From Sphingomonadales bacterium (GTDB lineage Bacteria > Pseudomonadota > Alphaproteobacteria > Sphingomonadales > Sphingomonadaceae): a stretch of DNA of 64,000 nt. The stretch covers positions 62,001-126,000 of the forward strand of contig JAFKLT010000036.1 in NCBI GenBank assembly GCA_017309275.1, in the 5' to 3' direction. Position numbers and translations under genes: made by a program. The notes beneath the pieces are model-generated. The model did not search any database, had not been told where the DNA came from, and was given only the letters and a program-made list of their open reading frames with translations. The number at the start of each line of letters is the position of its first letter. Within the stretch, counting starts at the first letter, position 1. This document shows, piece after piece, positions 19,638-53,304 of this stretch.

Positions 19638-21899
19638 TCAGAACTTGAAGCCCGCCTCGACGCCCCAGATGCGGGGTTCGTTGACGTAGCTGGTCAGGTT
19701 GTTGAAATCGATGCCGCCCGTCGGCGATGCGTCGTTCGTGATGTTGCGCACGAAGCCCGCGATGTCGAAGCGGTCGGTGCGATAACCGACGCGCAGCCCG
19801 CCTTCGAGCAGCTTGTCGTCCGAAAATTCGACCGAGCGATAGAGGAAGAACTGGATCTTCGAACGATAATACCAGTCGGTGAAGGCATAGATCGCGCCGT
19901 TGCCGACCGGGATTTCATAGCCCGCGGTCCAGTTCACCGTGAATTTCGGCGATTGCGGAAGCTGGTTGCCGTCGATCGAATAGATGCCGGGGCTGCCCGG
20001 GCGGACCGGGTCGAGGATCGTGCACGGCGTTGCCGAGCCGCAGCCCGCGACGAAGGCGTTGGCATCGTCGATCTTCGCGACGTTCCAGGCGCCGCCGACG
20101 GTGAAGGTCAGCCCGCGCGCGGGCGCGGCCTGCAGCTCGGCCTCGATCCCATGACCCTTGGCGTCGACGTTGAGCAGGCTGGCGACGTTCGACGTGCCGC
20201 CGACCGCCGTCAGCTGAAGATCCTTGGTGTCGAAATAATAGCCGGTCAGGTTGAAGCGGACGCGATTGTCGAGGAAGGAGGTCTTGATCCCCGCCTCATA
20301 CGACATGGTTTCTTCCTGGTCGGCGGTCGAGATCACGCGCGAGAAGGTCAGGCGGCCCTGCACCGAGGGCGCCCGGTAACCGCGTGCGACGCGCGCATAG
20401 ACGGTGACATCGTCCGATGCCGCATAGGTCGCGCTGGCGTCCCAGGTCAGCAGCTTGCCCTTTACGTTGGCGGCCTGCGGCGGAACCGGAGTATTCGGGC
20501 TGACGACGAAGATCGGCCGCGTCTCGACCGGGCGCGAGGCGACGAAATCGCGGGTGTCGTGATTGTAGCGCGCGCCCGCCTGAAGCTTCAGGCCGTTGTC
20601 GAACGCATAGTTGACCGAGCCGAAGATGCCATAGGCCTCGCTCTCCTGACGCTGGATCGCGATCGCCGACGGGGTGACGTCGGTCGGCCCGCCGAACTCG
20701 AAGCTGGAGATGTCGAGGTCTTCGTTGAAATAGAAGGCGCCGAACTGGTAGCCGAGCCCGCCGCTGTTGTTCGACGCGACGCGCACCTCCTGCGTGAACT
20801 GGTCGAGGCTGGGCACATTGTCCTGGCTCTGCGCCTGGAAGGGGATGAGGCCAGGGCCTGACACGGGCAGGAAGACGGCGCCGAAGCCGCCGTCGATGTC
20901 GCCGCGGCTGCGGAGATTGCCGTTCCAGTAGGAGGTGACCGAATAGAGCGTCACCGGCCCGAAATCATATTCGAGGTTGAGTCCGACATTATAGGTGTTG
21001 AGCTTCTGGAAATTCAGCCCGTCCTGATAGACCTTGTCGCGCTCGAATTCGGTGCCTGCGCCGCCGAGACCGACGAGATGATTGCTGCCCGGTACCTGCG
21101 TATTGGCGCGGAAGATGATCGCCGATCCGTCATAGACGCGGACCTGGCCGGTCACGCGGCCGGTGAAGGGGCCGCTTTCATATTGCAGCTGAAGCCGCGC
21201 GGCGATGTCGTCATAGCCGCCCAGATCCTTTTTCTGCGTCGTGGCTACATTGTCTACCCAGTTGTCGCGATGCTGAAACAGCGTCGAGAGACGGACCGAA
21301 AAGCCATTGTCGTCGGCGGCGCCCGCCGCGACCTCGACCTGGCTGGTGCCATAGCGTCCATAGCTCGCCCGGGCGTAGCCGCCGGTCTTGCCGGGGCGGA
21401 CGGTGTCGAACTTGACGATGCCCGCGGGCGTGTTGCGGCCGAACAGCGTGCCCTGCGGCCCGCGCAACACTTCGACGCGGTCGAGGTCGAAGATCGGGAA
21501 GCCCTTCAGGATCGGGTTTTCGAGAACGACGTCGTCATAGACGACACTTACCGGCTGCGAGGCGTTGAGGTCGAAGTCGGTGTTGCCGAGCCCGCGGATA
21601 TAAAAGCGCGGGAAGGTGCGGCCGAATGAGCTTTCGATGTTGAGGCTGGGAACGCGGCCCGCGAGGACGCGGACGTCGGCACCCGTCGAGGTGATCGCGC
21701 CCAGCGTGTCGCCGGCCAGGACGCTGACCGACACTGGCACGTCCTTCAGGCTTTCCTCGCGGCGCTGCGCGGTGACGACGATATCGCCAAGCCCGCTGTT
21801 TTCGGCGGCGGGGGCGCTATCCTGGGCGGCGGCGGGTACGGCCCAGCCGCTGGCGGCGAGGGCGAAAGCTATAGCGGTAGCGGAAGGAAAGTGGCGCAT
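19638..21899 (-). CDS. TonB-dependent outer-membrane receptor
   Basis: A 753-residue receptor with signal peptide (cleavage near AAAQD, residue 25), a TonB-box region DIVVTAQRREESLKDVPVSV, an N-terminal plug domain (about 45-155, containing FYIRGLGN and RVEVLRGPQGTLFGRNTPAG) and a 22-strand-type beta-barrel ending in an aromatic residue (GVEAGFKF). This is the sphingomonad type often annotated for siderophores, vitamin B12 or plant-derived carbohydrates and terpenes; the ligand cannot be read from the sequence. No FecR or sigma gene is adjacent. The 171-bp region before it shows no riboswitch that I can recognise. Confidence 0.95.
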   Translation of the reverse strand: MRHFPSATAIAFALAASGWAVPAAAQDSAPAAENSGLGDIVVTAQRREESLKDVPVSVSVLAGDTLGAITSTGADVRVLAGRVPSLNIESSFGRTFPRFYIRGLGNTDFDLNASQPVSVVYDDVVLENPILKGFPIFDLDRVEVLRGPQGTLFGRNTPAGIVKFDTVRPGKTGGYARASYGRYGTSQVEVAAGAADDNGFSVRLSTLFQHRDNWVDNVATTQKKDLGGYDDIAARLQLQYESGPFTGRVTGQVRVYDGSAIIFRANTQVPGSNHLVGLGGAGTEFERDKVYQDGLNFQKLNTYNVGLNLEYDFGPVTLYSVTSYWNGNLRSRGDIDGGFGAVFLPVSGPGLIPFQAQSQDNVPSLDQFTQEVRVASNNSGGLGYQFGAFYFNEDLDISSFEFGGPTDVTPSAIAIQRQESEAYGIFGSVNYAFDNGLKLQAGARYNHDTRDFVASRPVETRPIFVVSPNTPVPPQAANVKGKLLTWDASATYAASDDVTVYARVARGYRAPSVQGRLTFSRVISTADQEETMSYEAGIKTSFLDNRVRFNLTGYYFDTKDLQLTAVGGTSNVASLLNVDAKGHGIEAELQAAPARGLTFTVGGAWNVAKIDDANAFVAGCGSATPCTILDPVRPGSPGIYSIDGNQLPQSPKFTVNWTAGYEIPVGNGAIYAFTDWYYRSKIQFFLYRSVEFSDDKLLEGGLRVGYRTDRFDIAGFVRNITNDASPTGGIDFNNLTSYVNEPRIWGVEAGFKF

Positions 21900-41189: not shown

Positions 41190-41263
41190 GGCCCGATGGC
41201 GGAGTGGTGACGCAGCGGACTGCAAATCCGTATACGCCGGTTCGATTCCGGCTCGGGCCTCCA
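41190..41263 (+). tRNA. tRNA-Cys (GCA)
   Basis: A 74-base cloverleaf ends in encoded CCA. The acceptor stem pairs GGCCCGA (41190-41196) with TCGGGCC (41253-41259); the anticodon stem GCGGA/TCCGT closes the loop CTGCAAA, giving anticodon GCA; GCCGG-TTCGATT-CCGGC forms the T arm. The integrase gene begins 167 bp downstream, so the tRNA 3' half is probably the attachment site of the element. Confidence 0.95.
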
Positions 41264-41430: not shown

Positions 41431-42624
41431 GTGCTAACCGACACCGCAATTCGAAAGGCGAAACCCAAGGACAAGCCCTACAAGGTCTCAGATTCGCAGG
41501 GCCTGTATCTACTGGTTAATCCAAGGGGCAGCAAGCTGTGGCGCGTCAAATACCGCATAAACGGCGTGGAGCGAAAACTGGCGATTGGCTCCTACCCCGA
41601 AATCACCTTGGCGGAGGCGCGTAGCGCTCGCGATGCTGCGCGCAGACAATTGGCCCATTCGATCGATCCCAATTTTGTTAAGCGGCAAGCTCGCATCGAG
41701 GCGGGCATCCGAGCCAGCAATAGTTTTTCGAATGTGGCGCAGGAATTGATCGAGAAGAAGACGCGGGAGGGCTTGGCGGAGCCGACGCTGGCAAAGATGC
41801 GCTGGTTCGTGAAACTGCTCGGAACCGATTTTGGAAAGCGTCCCGTGGCGGAGATCACGCCGCAGGAATTGTTGCACGAATTGCGGAAGCATGAGCGGCG
41901 CGGTCGACTGGAAACGGCGAATCTCTTACGGGCCTTCGCCAGTCGCGTGTTTCGCTATTCGGTTGCCACCGCCCGCGCGGAACGCGATCCGGCGCAATTA
42001 TTGATCGGCGCGCTGACCACGCCGAGGGTCAAACATTTTCCCGCTATCACCGATCCGGTCACATTTGGGGCGTTGCTTCGCGCGATTGAAGATTATCAGG
42101 GCGACCCCGCCGTGATGCACGCGCTGAAGCTGACGCCCCATGTTTTTCAGCGTCCCGGCGAAGTCCGTCATATGGAATGGACGGAGGTAGATTTCGGCAA
42201 GGCGGTCTGGATCATTCCAGAAGGGAAGATGAAGATGCGCCAACCTCATTCGGTCCCCTTGTCGCGGCAGTCTCTCGCGATCCTCACCAATATGCGATCC
42301 CTGTCCGGTTCTGGCCGCTATGTGTTCCCGTCAATCAGATCGCGGGCGCGGCCGATCAGTGAGAATACGATCAATGCAGCGCTCCGCCGGATGGGTTATC
42401 CCAAGGACCAAATGACTGCGCACGGCTTTCGCACATCGGCATCCTCGCTCTTGAACGAATCTGGCAAATGGAACCCCGACGCGATCGAGCGGGCGCTGGC
42501 GCACATGGTCGCGGGTAGCGTTCGGCGCATATACAATCAGTCAGCCTATTGGGCTGAGCGCGTTGAAATGGCGCAATGGTGGAGCGACTATCTGGATGAA
42601 TTGCGCGAAGGAGGGAACAGATGA
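41431..42624 (+). CDS. Tyrosine-type site-specific integrase (P4-like)
   Basis: A 397-residue recombinase. The N-terminal DUF4102 arm-binding domain is clear (LTDTAIRKAKPKDKPYKVSD, GLYLLVNPRGSKLWRVKYR, LAIGSYPEITLAEAR), a core-binding domain follows (about 95-195), and the catalytic domain has the Arg of FQRPGEVRHMEW, the HGFR box in MTAHGFRTSASSLL and the nucleophile region VRRIYNQSAYWAER. Such integrases insert elements at tRNA 3' ends, consistent with the adjacent tRNA-Cys. The start is a GTG; no ATG fits the DUF4102 beginning. Its stop overlaps the start of the next gene (ATGA). Confidence 0.95.
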   Translation: MLTDTAIRKAKPKDKPYKVSDSQGLYLLVNPRGSKLWRVKYRINGVERKLAIGSYPEITLAEARSARDAARRQLAHSIDPNFVKRQARIEAGIRASNSFSNVAQELIEKKTREGLAEPTLAKMRWFVKLLGTDFGKRPVAEITPQELLHELRKHERRGRLETANLLRAFASRVFRYSVATARAERDPAQLLIGALTTPRVKHFPAITDPVTFGALLRAIEDYQGDPAVMHALKLTPHVFQRPGEVRHMEWTEVDFGKAVWIIPEGKMKMRQPHSVPLSRQSLAILTNMRSLSGSGRYVFPSIRSRARPISENTINAALRRMGYPKDQMTAHGFRTSASSLLNESGKWNPDAIERALAHMVAGSVRRIYNQSAYWAERVEMAQWWSDYLDELREGGNR

Positions 42625-44798: not shown

Positions 44799-45167
44799 AT
44801 GAAGACCGTCCAACATTCCATCCGCCTGCCCGCGGCGCTCGACACCGCGCTTCGCGCGCTGGCCGACCGGCAGGGCAAGACGGTTTATGCAATGCTCCGC
44901 CGCTGCGTGAAGACAGGGATCGACGGTCATGTAAATCCCACCGACGGCAGCTCAGACGATCGCGAACTTGTCGCCGAGGTGGCGTCGATGAGCACCCGCC
45001 TCGCCGATGTCGAACGCCTGCTCGACCGAACCTTGCACACGGCCTGCGCTGCCTATTGCTATGCCCGCAGTGCCGCGAAGGGCGGCGGCAAGACCGACGA
45101 GGTCATCACCGCCGAGACGAACCGGGCCTATGATCGGCAACGGGCGGCAGCGGGGGAACGGTCATGA
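44799..45167 (+). CDS. Ribbon-helix-helix mobilization accessory protein
   Basis: A 122-residue protein. The N terminus MKTVQHSIRLPAALDTALRA LADRQGKTVYAMLRRCVKTG has the strand-helix-helix pattern of an RHH/MetJ-Arc DNA-binding domain; the rest is helical with a coiled-coil stretch (ELVAEVASMSTRLADVERLL). Accessory proteins of this kind bind near oriT and help the relaxase, and repress their own operon. AGGGAGG lies upstream, and the inverted repeat at 44764-44784 is immediately before it. Its stop overlaps the coupling protein start (ATGA), so it heads the transfer operon. Confidence 0.75.
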   Translation: MKTVQHSIRLPAALDTALRALADRQGKTVYAMLRRCVKTGIDGHVNPTDGSSDDRELVAEVASMSTRLADVERLLDRTLHTACAAYCYARSAAKGGGKTDEVITAETNRAYDRQRAAAGERS

Positions 45168-47062
45168 GCGGGCCTCATGATCTCCGGCTTCATGCCGAGA
45201 CGCTGCGGCGTCATCTTCGCTACAGCCAGACGCGGCGGTTCAAACGGCAGTTCGCGATCATGGTCTCGTCGATCGCGCTCGGCGGTTTGGCCGCGCCCTA
45301 TATGATGCTCGATTCGAGCATCCTTCGGGACACCGGCACCCATTATCATGCGAAGATGCTGTCATGGTTTGCAGGCGACGGCGGCGATCCAGGGATAGTG
45401 ATCCGTTATGAGGGGAGAGACTATCTGACGCCCGCTCGCACGGTCGCGACCGATCCCTATTTCGTCCGCCGGGCGAGCGTCGCCAAGTCGTTTGTCATGC
45501 GCGGCGCCATGCTGGGGTTTGTCGCGTGGCTTTCGGGCCTGTTCCTGCTCCGCGATGTCGCGGCGCGCCGACGCGAACGGGCGCTGCGCGACCGCGTGAT
45601 CGACGGCACCAGGGTGACGAGTGAGAAGGAGCTTGTGAAGCTGGCGCGGACCGAAGCCGGCGCGCATCCGCTGGCGATCGGCCCGGTTCCCTTTCCCCGC
45701 CGCCTCGAAACCCGGCACATGGCGATGGTCGGCACGACCGGCAGCGGCAAGACGACAGTGCTGCGCCAGATGCTCGACGGAATTGCGGCGCGCGGCGAAG
45801 CCGCGCTGGTCTATGACACCAGCGGAGAGTTCATCGCCCATTACTTCCGGCCCGAGTGCGGCGACATCATCCTCAATCCGTTCGACGCCCGCTGCGTCTA
45901 TTGGTCGCCCTTCGCCGAGATCGCCCACCCCGCCGACGCCGATCGCATCGCGCAGCAGCTCGTTACCGAGACCGGGAAGCAGGACGACGACGTCTGGCTG
46001 GAAACCAGCCGCATTCTCGTTGCCAACATGATCCGGGAACTGTGGAAGGAGAAGAAATGCACGCTGCCCGACTTGCTCGAAGCGCTGCAGAAGATGGACA
46101 AGGATAAGCTCAAGACCTGGCTCAAGGACACGTCGTCGGCGCGCACCTTCTCCGACGACGCCGACCGCGCCACCGGCAGCGTGCTTTTCATGCTCGCGAA
46201 GGCCGCGAACCTGATCCAGTTCCTTCGGATGCCCGAGGAAGGCGAGAAGGTCTTTTCGTTCCGCGACTTCATCGCCAGCCTCGATGAGACGAAGGGCGCC
46301 AAGCCCTGGATCTTCGTGCCGCGAAAGGAAGAGCAATTTGTGGCGTTGAAGCCGCTGCTAGCCTGCTGGCTCGAATGCGCCGCGAGCGCCATGTTGGGCC
46401 TTGCTCCGTCAGCCGACCGGCGCGTCTGGTTCCTGCTCGACGAACTTGCCGACCTGCCCCGCGTCGACAATCTGACGCGCTTGCTGCCCGAGGGCCGCAA
46501 GTTCGGGGCAGCGGTCGTGCTGACCTTTCAGGGCGTGGGCCAGATGCGGCATCGCTATGGCGACGATCTTGCCGAATCCATGCTTGGCTGCTGCAACACC
46601 AAGCTCTTCCTCCAGATGGGCGACGGCGAGTCCCGGCGCTGGGCGAGCGACACGATCGGCACCTGCGAGGTCGAGGTCCAGACCATGACCGGCGCGCTCG
46701 GCGATGGCGACGACAAGCCACGGATGACGCTCGGCCGTCAGCGCAAGACCCGTCCCGCCGTGTTCGAAAGCGAACTCCGCCTCGCCCGCTATGAGGGCTA
46801 TTTGCTGTTCCCCGATGGGTTGCCGGTCGCGCGCATCGCGCTCACCGCCGACCATATTGAGAAACGCGGTGAGCCGCGCCAGCCCGCGTTTGTCGCCGCG
46901 AACCCGGAGACAACGCTCTGGCACCGGCCGTTGGAGTCGGCGCCCAACGAAGAGTCCGACAGCGCAGTGCCGACACCGGCCGAGGAGCCGGTCGTCGAAA
47001 AGCCGAAGATAAGGAAGAAGCCGCCGACACCCCCGCCTGCAGACGATGGTGGGCCGATCTGA
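45164..47062 (+). CDS. traD: TraD-like type IV coupling ATPase
   Basis: A 632-residue coupling protein (T4CP). Two N-terminal membrane helices (about residues 27-50 and 105-130) anchor it; the ATPase domain has Walker A GTTGSGKTT (residues 190-198) and Walker B VWFLLDELADLPR, with TFQGVGQMRHRYG after it, all typical of the TraD/TrwB family. It links the relaxase-DNA complex to a secretion channel. A Pro/Lys-rich tail (KKPPTPPPADD) ends the protein. It overlaps both neighbours (ATGA and TGATG), so RHH-traD-traA form one operon. The channel genes are missing in this window. Confidence 0.92.
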   Translation: MSGPHDLRLHAETLRRHLRYSQTRRFKRQFAIMVSSIALGGLAAPYMMLDSSILRDTGTHYHAKMLSWFAGDGGDPGIVIRYEGRDYLTPARTVATDPYFVRRASVAKSFVMRGAMLGFVAWLSGLFLLRDVAARRRERALRDRVIDGTRVTSEKELVKLARTEAGAHPLAIGPVPFPRRLETRHMAMVGTTGSGKTTVLRQMLDGIAARGEAALVYDTSGEFIAHYFRPECGDIILNPFDARCVYWSPFAEIAHPADADRIAQQLVTETGKQDDDVWLETSRILVANMIRELWKEKKCTLPDLLEALQKMDKDKLKTWLKDTSSARTFSDDADRATGSVLFMLAKAANLIQFLRMPEEGEKVFSFRDFIASLDETKGAKPWIFVPRKEEQFVALKPLLACWLECAASAMLGLAPSADRRVWFLLDELADLPRVDNLTRLLPEGRKFGAAVVLTFQGVGQMRHRYGDDLAESMLGCCNTKLFLQMGDGESRRWASDTIGTCEVEVQTMTGALGDGDDKPRMTLGRQRKTRPAVFESELRLARYEGYLLFPDGLPVARIALTADHIEKRGEPRQPAFVAANPETTLWHRPLESAPNEESDSAVPTPAEEPVVEKPKIRKKPPTPPPADDGGPI

Positions 47063-49833
47063 TGGTCGCGTCGGTATCGGCGCTGACCAGTTCGGCGCAG
47101 GCAAGCAGCTATTATGAGGCCGACGATTATTACGCCGAGGGCGGGCTGTCGCCGTCCGAATGGCACGGCAAGGGCGCCGAGGAGCTTGGGCTGTCGGGTG
47201 ATGTCGATCGCGACATCTTTCGCGAACTGCTCGACGGCAAGGTCGCGGACCAGCAGCTCGGCACGGTTCGTGACGGCCAGCTTGAGCATCGGCCCGGCTG
47301 GGATGTGACGCTGAGTGCGCCCAAGTCGGTGTCGATCATGGCCGAGGTTGCGGGCGACCGGCGACTAATCACCGCACATGGGGACGCGGTGAAGACGGCA
47401 CTCGCACATGTCGAGGCACATATGGCTGCGACCCGCGTCCGGCATGGCGGCAGCGTGACGCGCGAGGGCACCGGCAATCTCGTCGTCGCCAGCTTTCAGC
47501 ATGGGACGAGCCGCGCCCAAGACCCGCAATTGCACACCCATAATGTCATTATGAACGCGACGCAGGGCGGAGATGGAAGCTGGCGCAGCCTGGAGCCTCG
47601 CGCGATATATCAGCTCCAGAAGCAGATCGGCGCCATCTACCGGCAGGAGTTGGCCTTGAAGGTCCGCGAGCTTGGCTATGAAATTGCACCGGGCAAGGAG
47701 TCGATGTTCGAGATCAAAGGCGTCTCGGAGGACGCGATGGCGGCGTTCAGCACGCGCAGCGCCGAGATCGAGGCGGCACTGGGCGAACGCGGGACTTCGC
47801 GCGAAGATGCCAGCGCCGCTGAGAAGCAGGTCGCTGCGCTCGATACGCGGCAGGCGAAGGTGGCCACCGATCATGGCGCGCTCGTCGCCGACTGGCGCGA
47901 AGCCGCCGACCGGGCGGGATTCGATGCCGATGCCCGGCTGGCGTTGGTGCGCGAGGCCAAGGCCAGGGCAGCGAACGGCCTTCACCTTCCCGATCCATCC
48001 GTCGCCGATCGCGCCGTTGCCCATGCCGCCGACAAGCTTGGCGAGCGGCAGTCGGTGTTCTCGGTCGCGGCGCTTCATGAGGAAGCGGGGCGGGTTGGAT
48101 TGGGGAAGGTCGGCTATGCGGAGATTGGCGACGCGATCGGGCGGGCGACAAAGGATGGTGAACTGGTCGATCGCACCTTCGTCGATCGGCGCGGCGCCGC
48201 GTTCACGGGGTTCACGACGCGGCAGAATATCGCGGCCGAGAAGACATTGCTTCGTATCGAAGCGCACGGGCGCGGTGCGTTCGCGCCGACCGCCTCGCAG
48301 CTTACCGCCGCCAAGGCGGTCGCGGGTGCGGCGGCGCAGGCGGAGCGGTCCGGCTTTCGCTGGAACCCTGACCAGAAGGCCGCGACCGAGCAGCTTCTTG
48401 CCAGTCGCAATCGGATCACCGCGGTGCAGGGCTATGCCGGGACCGCCAAGACCACGACGGTGCTCGCCACCTTCGCGCGCGAGGCCGAAGCGCGCGGCGT
48501 ATCGGTGGTCGCATTGGCACCGACGGCTTCGGCAGCGATGACACTCGGCGAGGCGCTCGGCACGCGCGGCGATACGGTCGCGCGCCATTTGCTCGTGTCG
48601 GAAGGTTCGGCGCCCGGTCAGCCGGTGGCATGGATCGTCGATGAGGCTTCGCTGCTGTCGGCGCGCGATACCGCGCGGCTGTTCAAGTTGGCCGAGCAGC
48701 ATGGTGCTCGGATCATTCTCGTCGGCGATGTGAAGCAACTCGGATCGGTCGAAGCCGGCGCGGCGTTCGCGCAGCTCCAGAGTGCTGGCATGGAAACCTC
48801 CGCGCTTGGCGAAATCGTCCGGCAGAGCAATGCGTCCACGAGGGAGGCAGTGCTCGCCTCGATCGAGGGCGATGCAAAGAAAGCGCTCGCAGCGCTTGAT
48901 CGTGGCGGTGGCCAGATCGTCGAACACGCCGATCGCGCTGGCCGCTTCGCTGCAATCGCCGAACGCTATGCCGGACTCCACAAGGCGGCACGGGCGCGAA
49001 CGCTTGTCATCGAGCCCTCGCGCGAAGGCCGCGATGCGCTGACAGCAGACATAAGGGAGGCTCTAGTCAAGTCGGGCGCGCTTTCCGGTCCCGCCGTCGC
49101 CGTCGAAAGCCTCGTCAACAAGGGGCTGACCCGCGCGGAGGCGCGCGACCCGCTAAGCTACGACCGGGGCGATGTAGTACGCTTCACGCGCGACTATCCC
49201 GACAAGGGCGTCGCACTCGGCGAGGCCTATCGCGTCGAGGCGGTCAATCCGGCGAAAGCCGCCATCGCGCTGAGGTCCGAGGATGGACGCGAGGTCGATT
49301 GGCGGCTTCGCCAATGGGGCGCCGGCAAGGCGCAGGCGTTCGCGCCCCAGAATATCGACCTCAGGACCGGCGACTGCATCCGCTTTACCCGCAACGATCG
49401 CGACGCCGGGCGGGTCAATGGCGCGCGCGGCGAAGTGACGGCGATCGATGAGCAGGCGCGGACCGCGACTTTGGTTGGTGCTCGCGGGCAGATGCAGACG
49501 CTCGACCTCGACGCAGCGCGCGACCGGCATATCGCCCACGCTTATGTCGATACCGCCTTTGCCGCACAGGGGCGAACCGCCGATCATGTCATCATCCACG
49601 CCGACAGCCGCGCTACCAACCTGGTCGACCAGAAAAGCTTCTACGTCGGTATCTCGCGAGCGAAGGAGTCAGCGACGATAGTCACCAATAATCGCGCGAA
49701 GCTGGTTTCGGCGATCAATGAACGTGCTGGCGTCGTGCAGACGGCCATCGCACAGGCTGCGATGCCGGCGTCCGTCGCTCACAACGCAGCGGGCTCGGCA
49801 TTGTCTAAAAACCTTGCGGCATTCGGACTTTGA
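47062..49833 (+). CDS. traA: MobF-family relaxase-helicase (TraA/TrwC type)
   Basis: A 923-residue relaxase. The N-terminal domain (about 1-300) has the nicking tyrosines in SSYYEADDYY (Tyr17/Tyr18) and metal ligands in PQLHTHNVIMN (His158, His160), with GWDVTLSAPKSVSIM between. The second part (about 430-900) is a RecD2-type helicase with Walker A GYAGTAKTTT (Lys463) and motif WIVDEASLLS. It nicks the transferred strand at oriT and unwinds it. Normal TrwC-like proteins are 950-1000 residues, so this one is nearly full length. It ends 52 bp before the convergent HEPN-like gene. Confidence 0.95.
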   Translation: MVASVSALTSSAQASSYYEADDYYAEGGLSPSEWHGKGAEELGLSGDVDRDIFRELLDGKVADQQLGTVRDGQLEHRPGWDVTLSAPKSVSIMAEVAGDRRLITAHGDAVKTALAHVEAHMAATRVRHGGSVTREGTGNLVVASFQHGTSRAQDPQLHTHNVIMNATQGGDGSWRSLEPRAIYQLQKQIGAIYRQELALKVRELGYEIAPGKESMFEIKGVSEDAMAAFSTRSAEIEAALGERGTSREDASAAEKQVAALDTRQAKVATDHGALVADWREAADRAGFDADARLALVREAKARAANGLHLPDPSVADRAVAHAADKLGERQSVFSVAALHEEAGRVGLGKVGYAEIGDAIGRATKDGELVDRTFVDRRGAAFTGFTTRQNIAAEKTLLRIEAHGRGAFAPTASQLTAAKAVAGAAAQAERSGFRWNPDQKAATEQLLASRNRITAVQGYAGTAKTTTVLATFAREAEARGVSVVALAPTASAAMTLGEALGTRGDTVARHLLVSEGSAPGQPVAWIVDEASLLSARDTARLFKLAEQHGARIILVGDVKQLGSVEAGAAFAQLQSAGMETSALGEIVRQSNASTREAVLASIEGDAKKALAALDRGGGQIVEHADRAGRFAAIAERYAGLHKAARARTLVIEPSREGRDALTADIREALVKSGALSGPAVAVESLVNKGLTRAEARDPLSYDRGDVVRFTRDYPDKGVALGEAYRVEAVNPAKAAIALRSEDGREVDWRLRQWGAGKAQAFAPQNIDLRTGDCIRFTRNDRDAGRVNGARGEVTAIDEQARTATLVGARGQMQTLDLDAARDRHIAHAYVDTAFAAQGRTADHVIIHADSRATNLVDQKSFYVGISRAKESATIVTNNRAKLVSAINERAGVVQTAIAQAAMPASVAHNAAGSALSKNLAAFGL

Positions 49834-49885: not shown

Positions 49886-50398
49886 TTAGGGCAGGAGCAG
49901 ACCCCACTCGGCCCGCCACCATTCTCGGTTCTCGACCGTGTCGACCACCCTGCAGTCGAGGCGGTCCAATGCCGGGTCCGAGATCATCGAGAAGGCAAAA
50001 GGAATCTTGGAAAGCCACCCAAGTGACGATTGTAACTCTTCCCAGGAGATCGAGTGCTTCAGGCCGTTCAACTCCCAGCTCAAAACGGCAGGGGCGTCGC
50101 CGACCGACCCCATAATTCCGATCAGGCCGTGACAAATCCCGTTGCGAATATCCAGCTGCCCCTGAAGCTGCAATCTGAGAGTAGCCGCTAGCAGGGAGCA
50201 CAGCGTTTCGGGTGGCTGGGCCTCGACGACCGCGCCCTCCCAAATTCCTATAACGGCTTTGATGCCGTGTGCCTTGGCCGGGAGGAATCCCAAAAGACGG
50301 ACGACGTCATCACGAGCAGATCGTTCAATCCTGGACCAGAGCAGAATCAGCGATCCTATGGCGCCGCTCATCTGATTGAATGTCACATCCAATGGCAT
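49886..50398 (-). CDS. HEPN-like protein with RNxxxH motif, possible toxin
   Basis: A 170-residue protein. The first helix IGSLILLWSRIERSARDDVV (Glu25) and the later motif LDIRNGICHG (Arg85-Asn86...His90, an Rx4H) match the layout of HEPN-superfamily RNases, in which the Arg-x4-6-His pair is catalytic. The remainder (SWEELQSSLGWLSKIPFAFS) is alpha-helical. HEPN proteins act as ribonucleases in toxin-antitoxin, abortive-infection and CRISPR systems. It runs against the transfer operon and is preceded at 19 bp by a 75-residue acidic protein that could be its antitoxin. Family assignment rests on these motifs only. Confidence 0.65.
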   Translation of the reverse strand: MPLDVTFNQMSGAIGSLILLWSRIERSARDDVVRLLGFLPAKAHGIKAVIGIWEGAVVEAQPPETLCSLLAATLRLQLQGQLDIRNGICHGLIGIMGSVGDAPAVLSWELNGLKHSISWEELQSSLGWLSKIPFAFSMISDPALDRLDCRVVDTVENREWWRAEWGLLLP

Positions 50399-50799: not shown

Positions 50800-51726
50800 A
50801 TGAGCATGCGAACAGACGTCGATCACCTACCTGCCGCCAAGCAGCGCGAACTTGAACGCGTCGTCGAGACGATCTTCGCCGAGTTTCGGGGCGCGACCGA
50901 AAATGCGACTGGCCCGCGCAAGGGTGCGCGTATTCTCAAGATCATCCTGTTTGGCAGCCACGCGCGGGGCGACTGGGTCGATGCGCCGTTGTCGGCGAAC
51001 CAGTATAAATCCGACTATGACATCCTCGTCATCGTCAGCCAAAAAGAGATGACCGACCGCGCCGCCTATTGGGCGACTGCCGAGGACCGTCTCATTCGCG
51101 CTTACACGATCGAGAAAACGCTGCACACACCGGTCAATTTTATCGTCCACAGCCTGCACGAGGTGAACGATGGGCTCTCACATGGCCGTGTCTTCTTCAT
51201 GGAGGTCGTGAAAGACGGGATCGCGCTCTACGAAGCCGATGACCGAGAATTGGCTACGCCGAAGCCGAAAACACCGGAACAGGCGTTGGAAGCCGCCAAG
51301 GAATATTTCGACGAGTGGCTGACCAGCGCCATGGATTTTTACGATCAGGCAAAACATGCGATGGAGCGCGGGCGTGGCAAGATCGCAGCCTTTGAACTTC
51401 ATCAGGCGACCGAGCGCCTGTATTCCTGCGTCCTACTAACGCTGACGCTCTACACACCCTACAACCATAACATCGCGTTCTTGCGTTCGTTGGCTGAGGG
51501 GCTGGACCGCCGTCTTTACGGTCTCTGGCCGGAAGACACCCATCGCGAGCGATCGATGTTCCAGAAACTGAAGGAAGCCTACACCAAGGCTCGCTATTCC
51601 AAGCATTACAAGATCAGCGAGGAAGAGCTGACTTGGCTCGGGGAGCGCGTCGAGGAACTCGGGCGCGTGGTCCATCAGGTCTGTTCGGACAAGATCGCCG
51701 AGCTTGAGGCGGCGGCGCGCCAATAG
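50800..51726 (+). CDS. Fused nucleotidyltransferase (MNT) and HEPN protein
   Basis: A 308-residue chain with an N-terminal DNA-polymerase-beta-like nucleotidyltransferase and a C-terminal HEPN domain. In the first, ILFGSHARGDW has Gly52-Ser53 and the metal motif YKSDYDILVIV has Asp72 and Asp74; the spacing (18 residues) is longer than the usual GSx10DxD because of an insertion. The HEPN part (about 165-300) includes AAFELHQATERLYSCVLL and ARYSKHYKISEEELTWL (Arg265...His269). Separate MNT and HEPN proteins form toxin-antitoxin pairs in which MNT adds AMP to HEPN; a fusion implies control within one chain. The start lies in the 154-bp gap divergent from the small acidic gene. Confidence 0.85.
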   Translation: MSMRTDVDHLPAAKQRELERVVETIFAEFRGATENATGPRKGARILKIILFGSHARGDWVDAPLSANQYKSDYDILVIVSQKEMTDRAAYWATAEDRLIRAYTIEKTLHTPVNFIVHSLHEVNDGLSHGRVFFMEVVKDGIALYEADDRELATPKPKTPEQALEAAKEYFDEWLTSAMDFYDQAKHAMERGRGKIAAFELHQATERLYSCVLLTLTLYTPYNHNIAFLRSLAEGLDRRLYGLWPEDTHRERSMFQKLKEAYTKARYSKHYKISEEELTWLGERVEELGRVVHQVCSDKIAELEAAARQ

Positions 51727-51946
51727 GCGGTAGCCCCGGGCCCGCTTGCCGGGACTCCCGGATTCTGGCATAATCGTCGGCACGGAATGGAACGACTGGC
51801 GGCCATTCCGGGGATTATCCTGCCAGGCATCATGTAGGTCCGGCTGCGTGTCGGACGGTTGCTGATCGCCGCACCAGCGGCACCACAGCGAACACCGCTT
51901 GCCCATCCGCGCGCGATCGCGCGGACCGCCGCGATGCGAGCTGCAA

Positions 51947-52438
51947 ATGACACCCCCAACAACCGACGTTTACGCGCGCGAAGTCGTGATGGCGCGCGTC
52001 GGCCATCTCATCCGGCGCAAGCAGCGCGAAATCGAGCGCATCACCCGCATATTACGCGGCCTATTCGACCCCTTGCAGGTTCAGGCGCCCGAACCGGGAC
52101 GGATCAAGCGGATCATCCTCATCGGTCCCTATGCGCGGCGATCCTGGTACGAAGACAGCCGGACGATCGAATTTTCCGATTATGAATTCTGGGTCGTCGT
52201 CAATCATCCGCTGTTCACCGACGAACGCTGTTGGCAGCGGGCGCGGGCGACTATCGACCGCGAGCTTGGCAATCGCTGCGCGGTCGATGTCGAGATTTAT
52301 TCGAAGTCCGACATACGCGCCGCGAAGGCCGAGCGCGACACGTTCATTCTCGATCGGATCGAGGGCGGGATCAACCTCTATCGTGCGTCGCGCGATGCAC
52401 CGCTGCGTACAAACGGTCATGGGGAGGAACGGTCATGA
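51947..52438 (+). CDS. Degenerate nucleotidyltransferase-like protein, paralogue of the preceding MNT domain
   Basis: A 163-residue protein that lines up with the first half of the fused MNT-HEPN protein: REIERITRILRGLF with RELERVVETIFAEF, IKRIILIGPYARRSW with LKIILFGSHARGDW, FSDYEFWVVV with KSDYDILVIV, and the last 40 residues with the linker before HEPN (ILDRIEGGINLYRASRD with FMEVVKDGIALYEADD). The key Ser becomes Pro61 and the second metal Asp becomes Glu80, so catalysis is doubtful. There is no HEPN part. Its stop overlaps the start of the sigma gene (ATGA), which suggests joint regulation. The start is uncertain: ATG 51947 or 51989. Confidence 0.75.
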   Translation: MTPPTTDVYAREVVMARVGHLIRRKQREIERITRILRGLFDPLQVQAPEPGRIKRIILIGPYARRSWYEDSRTIEFSDYEFWVVVNHPLFTDERCWQRARATIDRELGNRCAVDVEIYSKSDIRAAKAERDTFILDRIEGGINLYRASRDAPLRTNGHGEERS

Positions 52439-52947
52439 GCCCTCCCTCATCGGTCGCCTCGTTCGACGAATTCTACCGCCGCGAGAATAGACAACTGTTC
52501 CATTTTTTCAGGCGCCGCGTCGGGCGCGAAGAAGCTTCCGACCTCGCGCAAGAGGCGTTCACACGAATGTTGCGTACCGGAGCATTTGAAAGGGTCGAGA
52601 ACCCCCGCGCATACCTCTTCCGGGCTGCCCGCAATCTCGTGATCGAGCGCGCACGCCAAGGGAAACGCAAGGGAGCGGGACTGTTCTCTTTCGATGACGA
52701 GCGTGATGCGCCCGCCGGCCCAGAACAGACGTTGGCAATGGAGGCATCGGATATGCGGCGGGGCTTACGGCGCGCGTTTCTTGCTATGCCCCGCCGCACG
52801 CGGCGTATTTTCCTGATGCACAGGTTGCGGCATCAAACTTACCGGGAAATCGCGGAAGAGATTGGCATCCGGGAACAGGGCGTTGAATATCATATGATGC
52901 GTGCGCTCTCGCGATGTCGGAAGGCGGTCGCGTTTCAGTGCTGGTGA
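52435..52947 (+). CDS. Orphan ECF sigma factor (FecI-like)
   Basis: A 170-residue RNA polymerase sigma factor with region 2 (FDEFYRRENRQLFHFFRRRV GREEASDLAQEAFTRMLRTG) and region 4 (LRRAFLAMPRRTRRIFLMHR LRHQTYREIAEEIGIREQGV EYHMMRALSRC). The pattern of region 4 is like FecI-type ECF sigma factors that answer to a FecR anti-sigma factor and a TonB receptor. Neither is adjacent: the next gene is 358 bp away and catabolic. The gene is coupled by ATGA to the degenerate nucleotidyltransferase gene, which may take the place of an anti-sigma factor. GGGGAGG provides its ribosome site. Confidence 0.88.
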   Translation: MSPPSSVASFDEFYRRENRQLFHFFRRRVGREEASDLAQEAFTRMLRTGAFERVENPRAYLFRAARNLVIERARQGKRKGAGLFSFDDERDAPAGPEQTLAMEASDMRRGLRRAFLAMPRRTRRIFLMHRLRHQTYREIAEEIGIREQGVEYHMMRALSRCRKAVAFQCW

Positions 52948-53304
52948 ACGGCGGTTAACCGCGCTGGGCCTTCCGCTTTGCGCCTCATCTGCGACATTCG
53001 GATGCTCGAAGCCTCTTCTTGAAAGCTGTCATTGATGCTTTTTCCAAGCCTCTTCTCATGTTGCCGATCGATCGTCGCCGATTTCGCTCCACAATGCCTT
53101 GGGAAGCGACGGATAATATCAGCCGGACATGTGAGCCAATCCGCGATTCCGTCTTCCACCACCGGATCAAGGCTTCGATTGATGCCGGTCTTGACCGACT
53201 TCGGGCAGCCGAGACATTGTTGTGCGTGTAATGATTGCACTATGCCCTGCTATTAGGCGCCGTCTTAAGGGACGATCCGGCGTCGATAAAAGATATAAGA
53301 TAGA
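52948..53304. other. Intergenic stretch, probable end region of the element
   Basis: 357 bp without a supported gene. A perfect 12-bp palindrome GCGGTTAACCGC (52951-52962) follows the sigma gene stop. Small open frames on both strands have no protein-like features. No copy of the tRNA-Cys 3' end is present. The last 40 bp before 53305 are AT-rich (GATAAAAGATATAAGATAG) and may hold the promoter of the catabolic operon. Confidence 0.5.

Follow-up and report, generated by a model that had tools for sequence, protein, structure and literature searches.

The window analysed here, a stretch of 64,000 nucleotides of contig JAFKLT010000036.1 from a Sphingomonadales bacterium, carries a mobile element whose left side is marked by a tyrosine integrase gene (41431-42624, + strand) beside a tRNA-Cys gene (41190-41263), followed by the genes of a TraD-type coupling protein (45164-47062, +) and a MobF relaxase/helicase TraI (47062-49833, +). 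Because a search downstream for a repeat of the tRNA-Cys 3′ end, as the end of the element, found none, its right border is undefined. Downstream of all four features lie three genes on the + strand: one for an MNT-HEPN protein homologous to the VirD2-binding protein VBP (50806-51726), one for a stand-alone nucleotidyltransferase-like protein of 163 residues, here termed sNT (51947-52438, ATG start), and one for a FecI-like ECF sigma factor of 170 residues (52435-52947, ATG start). Between TraI and MNT-HEPN, on the minus strand, there is also an open reading frame of 170 residues (49886-50398), which has a relative in L031 and L038 (numbers with an L denote related loci in other contigs) and no Pfam match at E ≤ 0.001.

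The sNT stop codon and the sigma start codon overlap in the sequence ATGA, exactly where a preliminary description of this DNA had placed them, and the two genes would thus be translationally coupled and their products made together. The sigma factor bears Sigma70_r2 and Sigma70_r4_2 domains, both above the Pfam gathering score, as an ECF factor does. That it stands without FecR or TonB beside it, as had also been noted, was upheld by a tblastn search of the window, in which FecR, lasso-type TonB receptor and isopeptidase had no match; a TonB receptor gene (19638-21899) does lie 30 kb away. Co-occurrence in other genomes had been proposed as a check on this arrangement, and it was found. Scanning of genome contigs turned up 54 related loci (L030-L083), free of FecR matches and with one weak TonB match (L057), and 46 of them display the same 4-nt overlap, the sigma start codon, chosen by script near the expected place, being ATG in 42 and GTG in four. 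These 46 include L078, with a broken sNT frame, and L046, with sigma cut by the contig end. The MNT-HEPN gene is present upstream in 44 of the 44 loci that could be assessed (partial in L057; L071 and L073 have too little upstream DNA). The other eight loci comprise five with an upstream ECF sigma gene and a LuxR-type gene (L074-L077 and L079; MNT-HEPN upstream in 0 of 5), two that end inside sNT (L081, L082), and L083, where a protein with two sigma region 4 domains (520-1464) takes the place of sigma. Near-duplicates remain among the loci, for example L054/L056, L061/L063, L065/L066 and L009/L030; the sNT/sigma arrangement is more than chance. Neighbouring genes vary, with MobF TraI and TraD in some loci and ParB, Ros/MucR and a MobA/MobL relaxase-helicase in others, and since sNT, sigma and MNT-HEPN are conserved while their surroundings change, the unit constitutes a module that recurs on conjugative elements. 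A match at E ≤ 1e-15 was present in 16 of 298 family genomes, and in three of the 16 (L021-L023) it was an MNT-HEPN protein.

The preliminary description had aligned sNT by eye with the MNT half of its neighbour along the whole length; the homology stands, and the extent proved only nearly right, since residues 18-147 align. BLASTP of sNT against MNT-HEPN (50800-51726) gave 31% over 142 columns (E 7e-12), and the profile-profile comparison that had been suggested returned a probability score of 97.1 (E 6e-11), again in favour of nucleotidyltransferase homology. The protein had no match in Pfam, NCBIfam or PADLOC at E ≤ 1, nor in PHROGs at E ≤ 0.01, and it is devoid of a HEPN half, its 163 residues ending after the nucleotidyltransferase domain with no Pfam HEPN match. 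The genome of the window holds this one sNT and seven MNT-HEPN-type matches including the neighbour, one of the seven with an internal stop. AlphaFold models were poor when built from sNT rows only (pLDDT 51) and moderate when MNT rows were mixed in (pLDDT 68), a mixture that leans towards the MNT fold. A fold search with the model found no solved structure at E ≤ 0.001; its top matches were MntA antitoxins (7bxo at E 0.03-0.04, the best value, with 7ae9 and 5yep lower), which is suggestive only. A search of the PDB with the mixed sNT/MNT profile found no match, and one with the single sNT sequence found one chance-like match (E 0.56).

Active minimal nucleotidyltransferases of the pol-β type carry an hG[GS] motif, then [DE]h[DE] and a third carboxylate. 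Both the sequence and the alignment bear out the reported replacement of the motif serine, with Gly-Pro instead of Gly-Ser in sNT. The reported change at a metal aspartate is likewise present, as Asp-Tyr-Glu for Asp-x-Asp, but by itself it is no proof of lost activity, because the nucleotidyltransferase superfamily tolerates [DE]h[DE]. In 42 sNT sequences (the frameshifted L078 was excluded from protein alignments), G60, D78, Y79 and E80 are invariant, as is an N-terminal stretch YxREVVMARVxHL except at its x positions, and purifying selection is indicated by a ratio of mean pN to mean pS of about 0.28 (42 loci, uncorrected). The invariance of G60, D78 and E80 would be in keeping with an enzyme that still nucleotidylates the sigma factor or RNA polymerase. 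That reading is nonetheless very unlikely, as the Gly is followed by Pro in more than 90% of the 42 sequences and by Thr in L044, the position of the third carboxylate varies, and the first Asp is also lost in the distant relatives L019, L020 and L026. Gly-Pro being a family-wide feature, sNT is probably a selected pseudo-enzyme; a conserved pseudo-enzyme is the simplest reading of its sequence, and the protein is likely to be non-catalytic.

Residues 158-308 of the MNT-HEPN companion match PDB 4nqf, the HEPN domain of Agrobacterium VBP (E 2.4e-41), and are thus homologous to the HEPN dimerisation domain of that protein. The two proteins share the same layout of nucleotidyltransferase and HEPN domains, and the gene in the window lies beside those of a relaxase and a coupling protein. 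VBP is described as recruiting the VirD2 relaxase-DNA complex to the coupling protein VirD4 (PMC3953389), as binding an ATP analogue as a dimer (PMC3953389; PMC4667095), and as needing HEPN-mediated dimerisation to bind its partners (PMC3953389). Homology to VBP suggests a role in the T4SS for MNT-HEPN. It retains the GS and DYD motifs, but the view that it is presumably active is not established, since an invariant Asn occupies the presumed third carboxylate position (20 of 20 sequences). A conserved promoter of its own (TTGCCA-N17-GAAGAT, 43 sequences) precedes the ATG of the gene by a few bases, with 50806 directly after it as the likely start, and so short a distance means that the mRNA may be leaderless.

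The kinship with VBP, together with TraD and TraI just upstream in the window, makes it conceivable that sNT belongs to the transfer machinery, where at the relaxase or the coupling protein it would compete with the VBP-like MNT-HEPN or join it, sigma being merely co-expressed. The separate promoter of MNT-HEPN, the presence of region-4 genes after sNT in fetched DNA from which MNT-HEPN is missing (L020, L025, L027), and the lack in sNT of the HEPN domain through which VBP dimerises all weigh against this role, which is judged unlikely. While sNT is homologous to the nucleotidyltransferase half of VBP, it differs from VBP in its missing HEPN domain, its Gly-Pro motif and its coupling to a sigma gene. 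Far less probable still is a toxin-antitoxin or defence function, with MNT-HEPN as toxin and sNT as antitoxin. It draws on the match of MNT-HEPN to the PADLOC candidate family PDC-S09 (E 3e-7) and to the MntA antitoxin model (24.9 bits, below the cut-off of 60). Nucleotidyltransferase homology is shared with the HEPN/MNT (HepT/MntA) type VII systems, whose MntA antitoxins headed the fold matches of the sNT model. In those terms, however, MNT-HEPN is one fused chain and no separate HEPN toxin is present, and sNT has lost the motif serine, is coupled to sigma, has no match to the models of such systems or elsewhere in PADLOC, and has a separate promoter and leader in front of it. In addition, RNase residues are reported to be typically missing from HEPN domains that are fused to MNT (PMC3710099), and the resemblance of MNT-HEPN to the T4SS recruiter VBP makes the toxin-antitoxin reading less likely.

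The preferred partner of sNT is instead the sigma factor. Region 4 of sigma is kept where the full protein is replaced: region-4-only proteins of 89 residues are encoded in L025 and L027 (2002-2271), the replacement in L083 is a double region 4, and region-4 proteins also occur close to L019 and L020, two distant relatives. In L026 the search revealed no region-4 gene after the sNT relative, and six loci (L018, L074-L077 and L079) have sNT with neither a window-type leader nor a downstream region-4 gene, their ECF sigma and LuxR genes lying upstream. As region 4 stays when the rest of sigma is lost, sNT perhaps acts through region 4. Distances between sNT proteins track those between sigma factors (r 0.58; partial 0.49 given MNT-HEPN), and physical linkage alone would also produce such a correlation. 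The rate of evolution of sigma is about double that of sNT (mean amino acid distance 0.452 versus 0.229), which is not as expected for a tight anti-sigma pair. That sNT is the partner of sigma stands at about an even chance, and that it is an anti-sigma factor proper, a role drawn from linkage and overlap, is doubtful. Small proteins with one or two region 4 domains also replace or follow sigma in L064-L066, L094, L144 and L147; a region-4 protein follows sigma in L040, L041, L042, L044, L045 and L073, and in L047, L058 and L078 a second full sigma gene occupies that position.

MNT-HEPN and sNT are separated by 207-223 nt in 29 of 44 loci and by 560-4338 nt in the other 15, where other DNA intervenes. 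In the window this interval contains a sigma-70-like promoter (51746-51774, +), composed of TTGCCG at 51746-51751, a 17-nt spacer and CATAAT at 51769-51774, and then a structured leader RNA of approximately 165 nt (51781-51946, +). Both are conserved in an alignment of 48 sequences, from which L008, L018-L020, L026, L028, L029, L071, L073-L079, loci with too short an upstream region and exact duplicates were left out, and over which the leader aligns with 81% mean column identity. The fold comprises helices P1 (51784-51790/51803-51809), P2 (51811-51813/51819-51821), P3 (51838-51842/51852-51856) and P5 (51897-51902/51936-51941), and a pseudoknot (51796-51800/51822-51826). In total 37 pairs are predicted, or 42 with the pseudoknot, and 99.5% of alignment cells are paired. 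Both sides have changed in nine pairs against a shuffled mean of 3.1, sliding controls reach 38-44%, and the pseudoknot pairs are invariant within this set. Pairs of G with U are frequent, which fits an RNA of the + strand. Synonymous change within sNT is lowest in codons 1-20, a further point in favour of the regulatory reading. Taken alone, the window sequence has an ordinary folding energy (z -1.24; 24 of 200 shuffles fold as well). Rfam 15 gave no match in window positions 51600-53300 at E ≤ 5, nor did Rfam in ten leader loci at E ≤ 1. A small coding gene within the leader is disfavoured by compensatory changes and by indels of one or two bases. The operon and the leader RNA are well supported. 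The 3′ strand of P5, the last helix, pairs the bases 6 to 11 upstream of the sNT start codon and includes a weak Shine-Dalgarno-like GAG triplet 6 nt before the ATG; because the weak ribosome-binding region is thereby covered, gating of translation is the most likely function of the leader and is considered quite probable.

A covariance model of the leader (R1) applied to the 298 family genomes gave 13 strong matches before sNT and one elsewhere (L094, 86 bits). The latter (L094:1501-1680, minus strand) precedes not sNT but a different gene of 219 codons and a region-4-only protein. Ten of the weak R1 matches, in the 298 genomes and the window's own genome, lie before genes of FecI-like ECF sigma factors, which are 32-44% identical to that of the window, and four (L101-L103, L111) do not. 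An alignment of 24 leaders (the 13 of sNT type, L094 and the ten divergent ones) has 96.6% of its cells paired and changes on both sides in 13 of 20 pairs, a count attained in 0 of 500 shuffles, although its rows were fitted to the model and the pairing percentages lean towards it. In several divergent leaders the arms of P1 are quite different and still pair. With a second model (R2), the same genomes yielded 38 places scoring above 40 bits, namely the 14 R1 places and 24 others. Of these 24, 23 were examined, and in a raw count each of them precedes an ECF sigma gene on the same strand; 13 of the 23 had no part in building R2, although L118-L121 and L124 are closely related among themselves. 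Three of five matches below 26 bits were examined and none is followed by sigma, and among three matches below 18 bits in the own genome there is one weak sigma-like open reading frame (L114). A search of 385 genomes of the class with R2, under strict filters and in a sample poor in family members, matched only the own genome, while laxer filters applied to 21 relatives revealed leader matches in another six genomes of the genus. Eight of the 18 places outside the own genome were fetched: four precede sNT-sigma (L171-L173, L177), two precede FecI-FecR (L175, L176), L174 is cut by the contig end, and L178 (54 bits, G685:C241) has no ECF sigma in the 1.2 kb of downstream sequence available. With L178 as the exception, the leader thus combines covariation with a fixed place before one gene class, as a cis-regulatory structured RNA would. 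In L176 the order is MNT-HEPN, leader, FecI and FecR, as in the window except that sNT is missing and FecR is present. Contig G685:C241 carries both L178 and L174: an MNT-HEPN gene is followed there by two copies of the leader, separated by about 1 kb that contains no sigma gene, and L174 is the second of the two.

These distributions bear on two further readings of the leader. Inverted repeats near relaxase genes are typical of oriT, and this, along with the ordinary folding energy of the window copy, would suit a DNA site, whether operator or origin of transfer, in place of an RNA. The G-U pairs at many positions, the covariation and the copies before FecI genes of lasso-peptide clusters render such a site most improbable. 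Binding of sNT to the leader, and hence regulation of its own operon, is somewhat less remote but still decidedly unlikely. It accords with the position before sNT of 13 of the 14 strong leader matches in the family genomes and with slow synonymous change in the first 20 sNT codons (lowest there, at 0.15-0.26 versus 0.27-0.48), and it is at odds with the occurrence of the same leader class before FecI genes without sNT and with the absence of the leader from six sNT loci searched.

Leaders of this class also stand before sigma genes of lasso-peptide import clusters. The neighbourhoods of 19 FecI leaders contain a TonB receptor gene in all 19, an isopeptidase-like S9 gene in all 19 (truncated in L146), a cyclase gene in 17, FecR by BLAST in 14 and a LuxR gene in ten. 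In L147 the S9 protein belongs to the Atxe2 family of lasso-peptide isopeptidases (E 1e-244), and that of L133 matches this family below its cut-off. An isopeptidase match at E ≤ 1e-40 is present in 19 of the 20 genomes with a FecI-type leader place (in the remaining one that place is on a 4.3-kb contig), while 29 of 48 isopeptidase genomes are without a FecI-type leader match. A review of lasso-peptide clusters names sigma/anti-sigma pairs and TonB transporters as constant parts, and the word riboswitch does not occur in the available portion of its text (PMC9266682). From isopeptidase clusters without an R2 match, 20 were chosen (L151-L170; none above 17 bits), and all 20 have an upstream ECF sigma gene by HMM, weak in L157 and L166. 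In 16 of the 20, another conserved leader was seen by eye before the FecI genes (for example L154:6373-6527, minus strand). Aligned over 15 sequences, with L155 set aside as a near copy of L154, this second leader forms 31 pairs, 18 of them with changes on both sides, with 97.6% of cells paired; the pairs include a hairpin-loop pseudoknot UGAGAA/UUCUCA with paired changes in L152 and L165, and Rfam had no match in the loci searched.

Taken as a whole, the unit may be read, with chances evenly balanced, as a leader-RNA-gated regulatory operon of sphingomonad integrative/conjugative elements in which sNT is the partner of sigma. A vegetative-type promoter would produce an mRNA that starts with the pseudoknotted leader, and this would gate translation of sNT as a switch sensing a ligand, a protein or a condition. 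The sNT protein, a VBP-type nucleotidyltransferase domain that lacks a HEPN half and is altered in its catalytic motif, would act on region 4 as adaptor, sensor or anti-sigma, in the operon position where related lasso-peptide clusters carry FecR, and sigma would then switch genes of the element. The leader RNA and the ECF sigma are related to those of the AtxE2-type lasso-peptide FecI/FecR/TonB operons; in the window, however, sNT lies between leader and sigma, and FecR, lasso-type TonB receptor, isopeptidase and cyclase have no match. Like other structured 5′ leaders and riboswitches, the leader is a conserved pseudoknotted RNA right after the promoter with a helix over the start region; unlike them it matches no Rfam family, and a riboswitch function is putative. 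sNT falls outside both the VBP and the HEPN/MNT definitions, the operon outside that of FecI/FecR and the RNA outside Rfam, which points to an undescribed gene control system. This agrees with the initial impression that the arrangement was not known as a described system: no matching description was found in the open-licence literature, and an earlier one may exist in print. A wider proposal, offered tentatively and at less than even probability, is that a new class of pseudoknotted leaders with at least two sequence types gates the sphingomonad ECF sigma factors of lasso-peptide import and of conjugative elements, and that on the elements a dead VBP-type nucleotidyltransferase replaces FecR as sensor or anti-sigma. 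If true, transfer would be coupled to a signal read by both RNA and protein. The leader is a testable candidate RNA switch for how sphingomonad mobile elements decide to act and for what turns on lasso-peptide import clusters, and a pseudo-nucleotidyltransferase that is conserved and, in divergent relatives too, linked to sigma region 4 represents a possible new form of sigma control.

A plasmid collection contained 264 matching records, all below 60% identity, and in the 60 of them that were listed the features were mostly HEPN or nucleotidyltransferase-HEPN genes, or none was annotated. The sNT loci with LuxR-type neighbours (L018, L074-L077 and L079) form a group found also in contigs labelled Nitrobacter, Kaistia and Pseudochelatococcus; a LysR gene lies downstream of sNT in L074, L075 and L018, and trb-like genes were seen by eye in some of these loci. 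The window's own genome has two more leader-FecI operons with FecR and TonB (G000:C74:18814-18957 and G000:C32:84356-84486), accompanied by isopeptidase-like genes below the family cut-off and, upstream, by LuxR, LuxI, PhyH-like and GntR genes.
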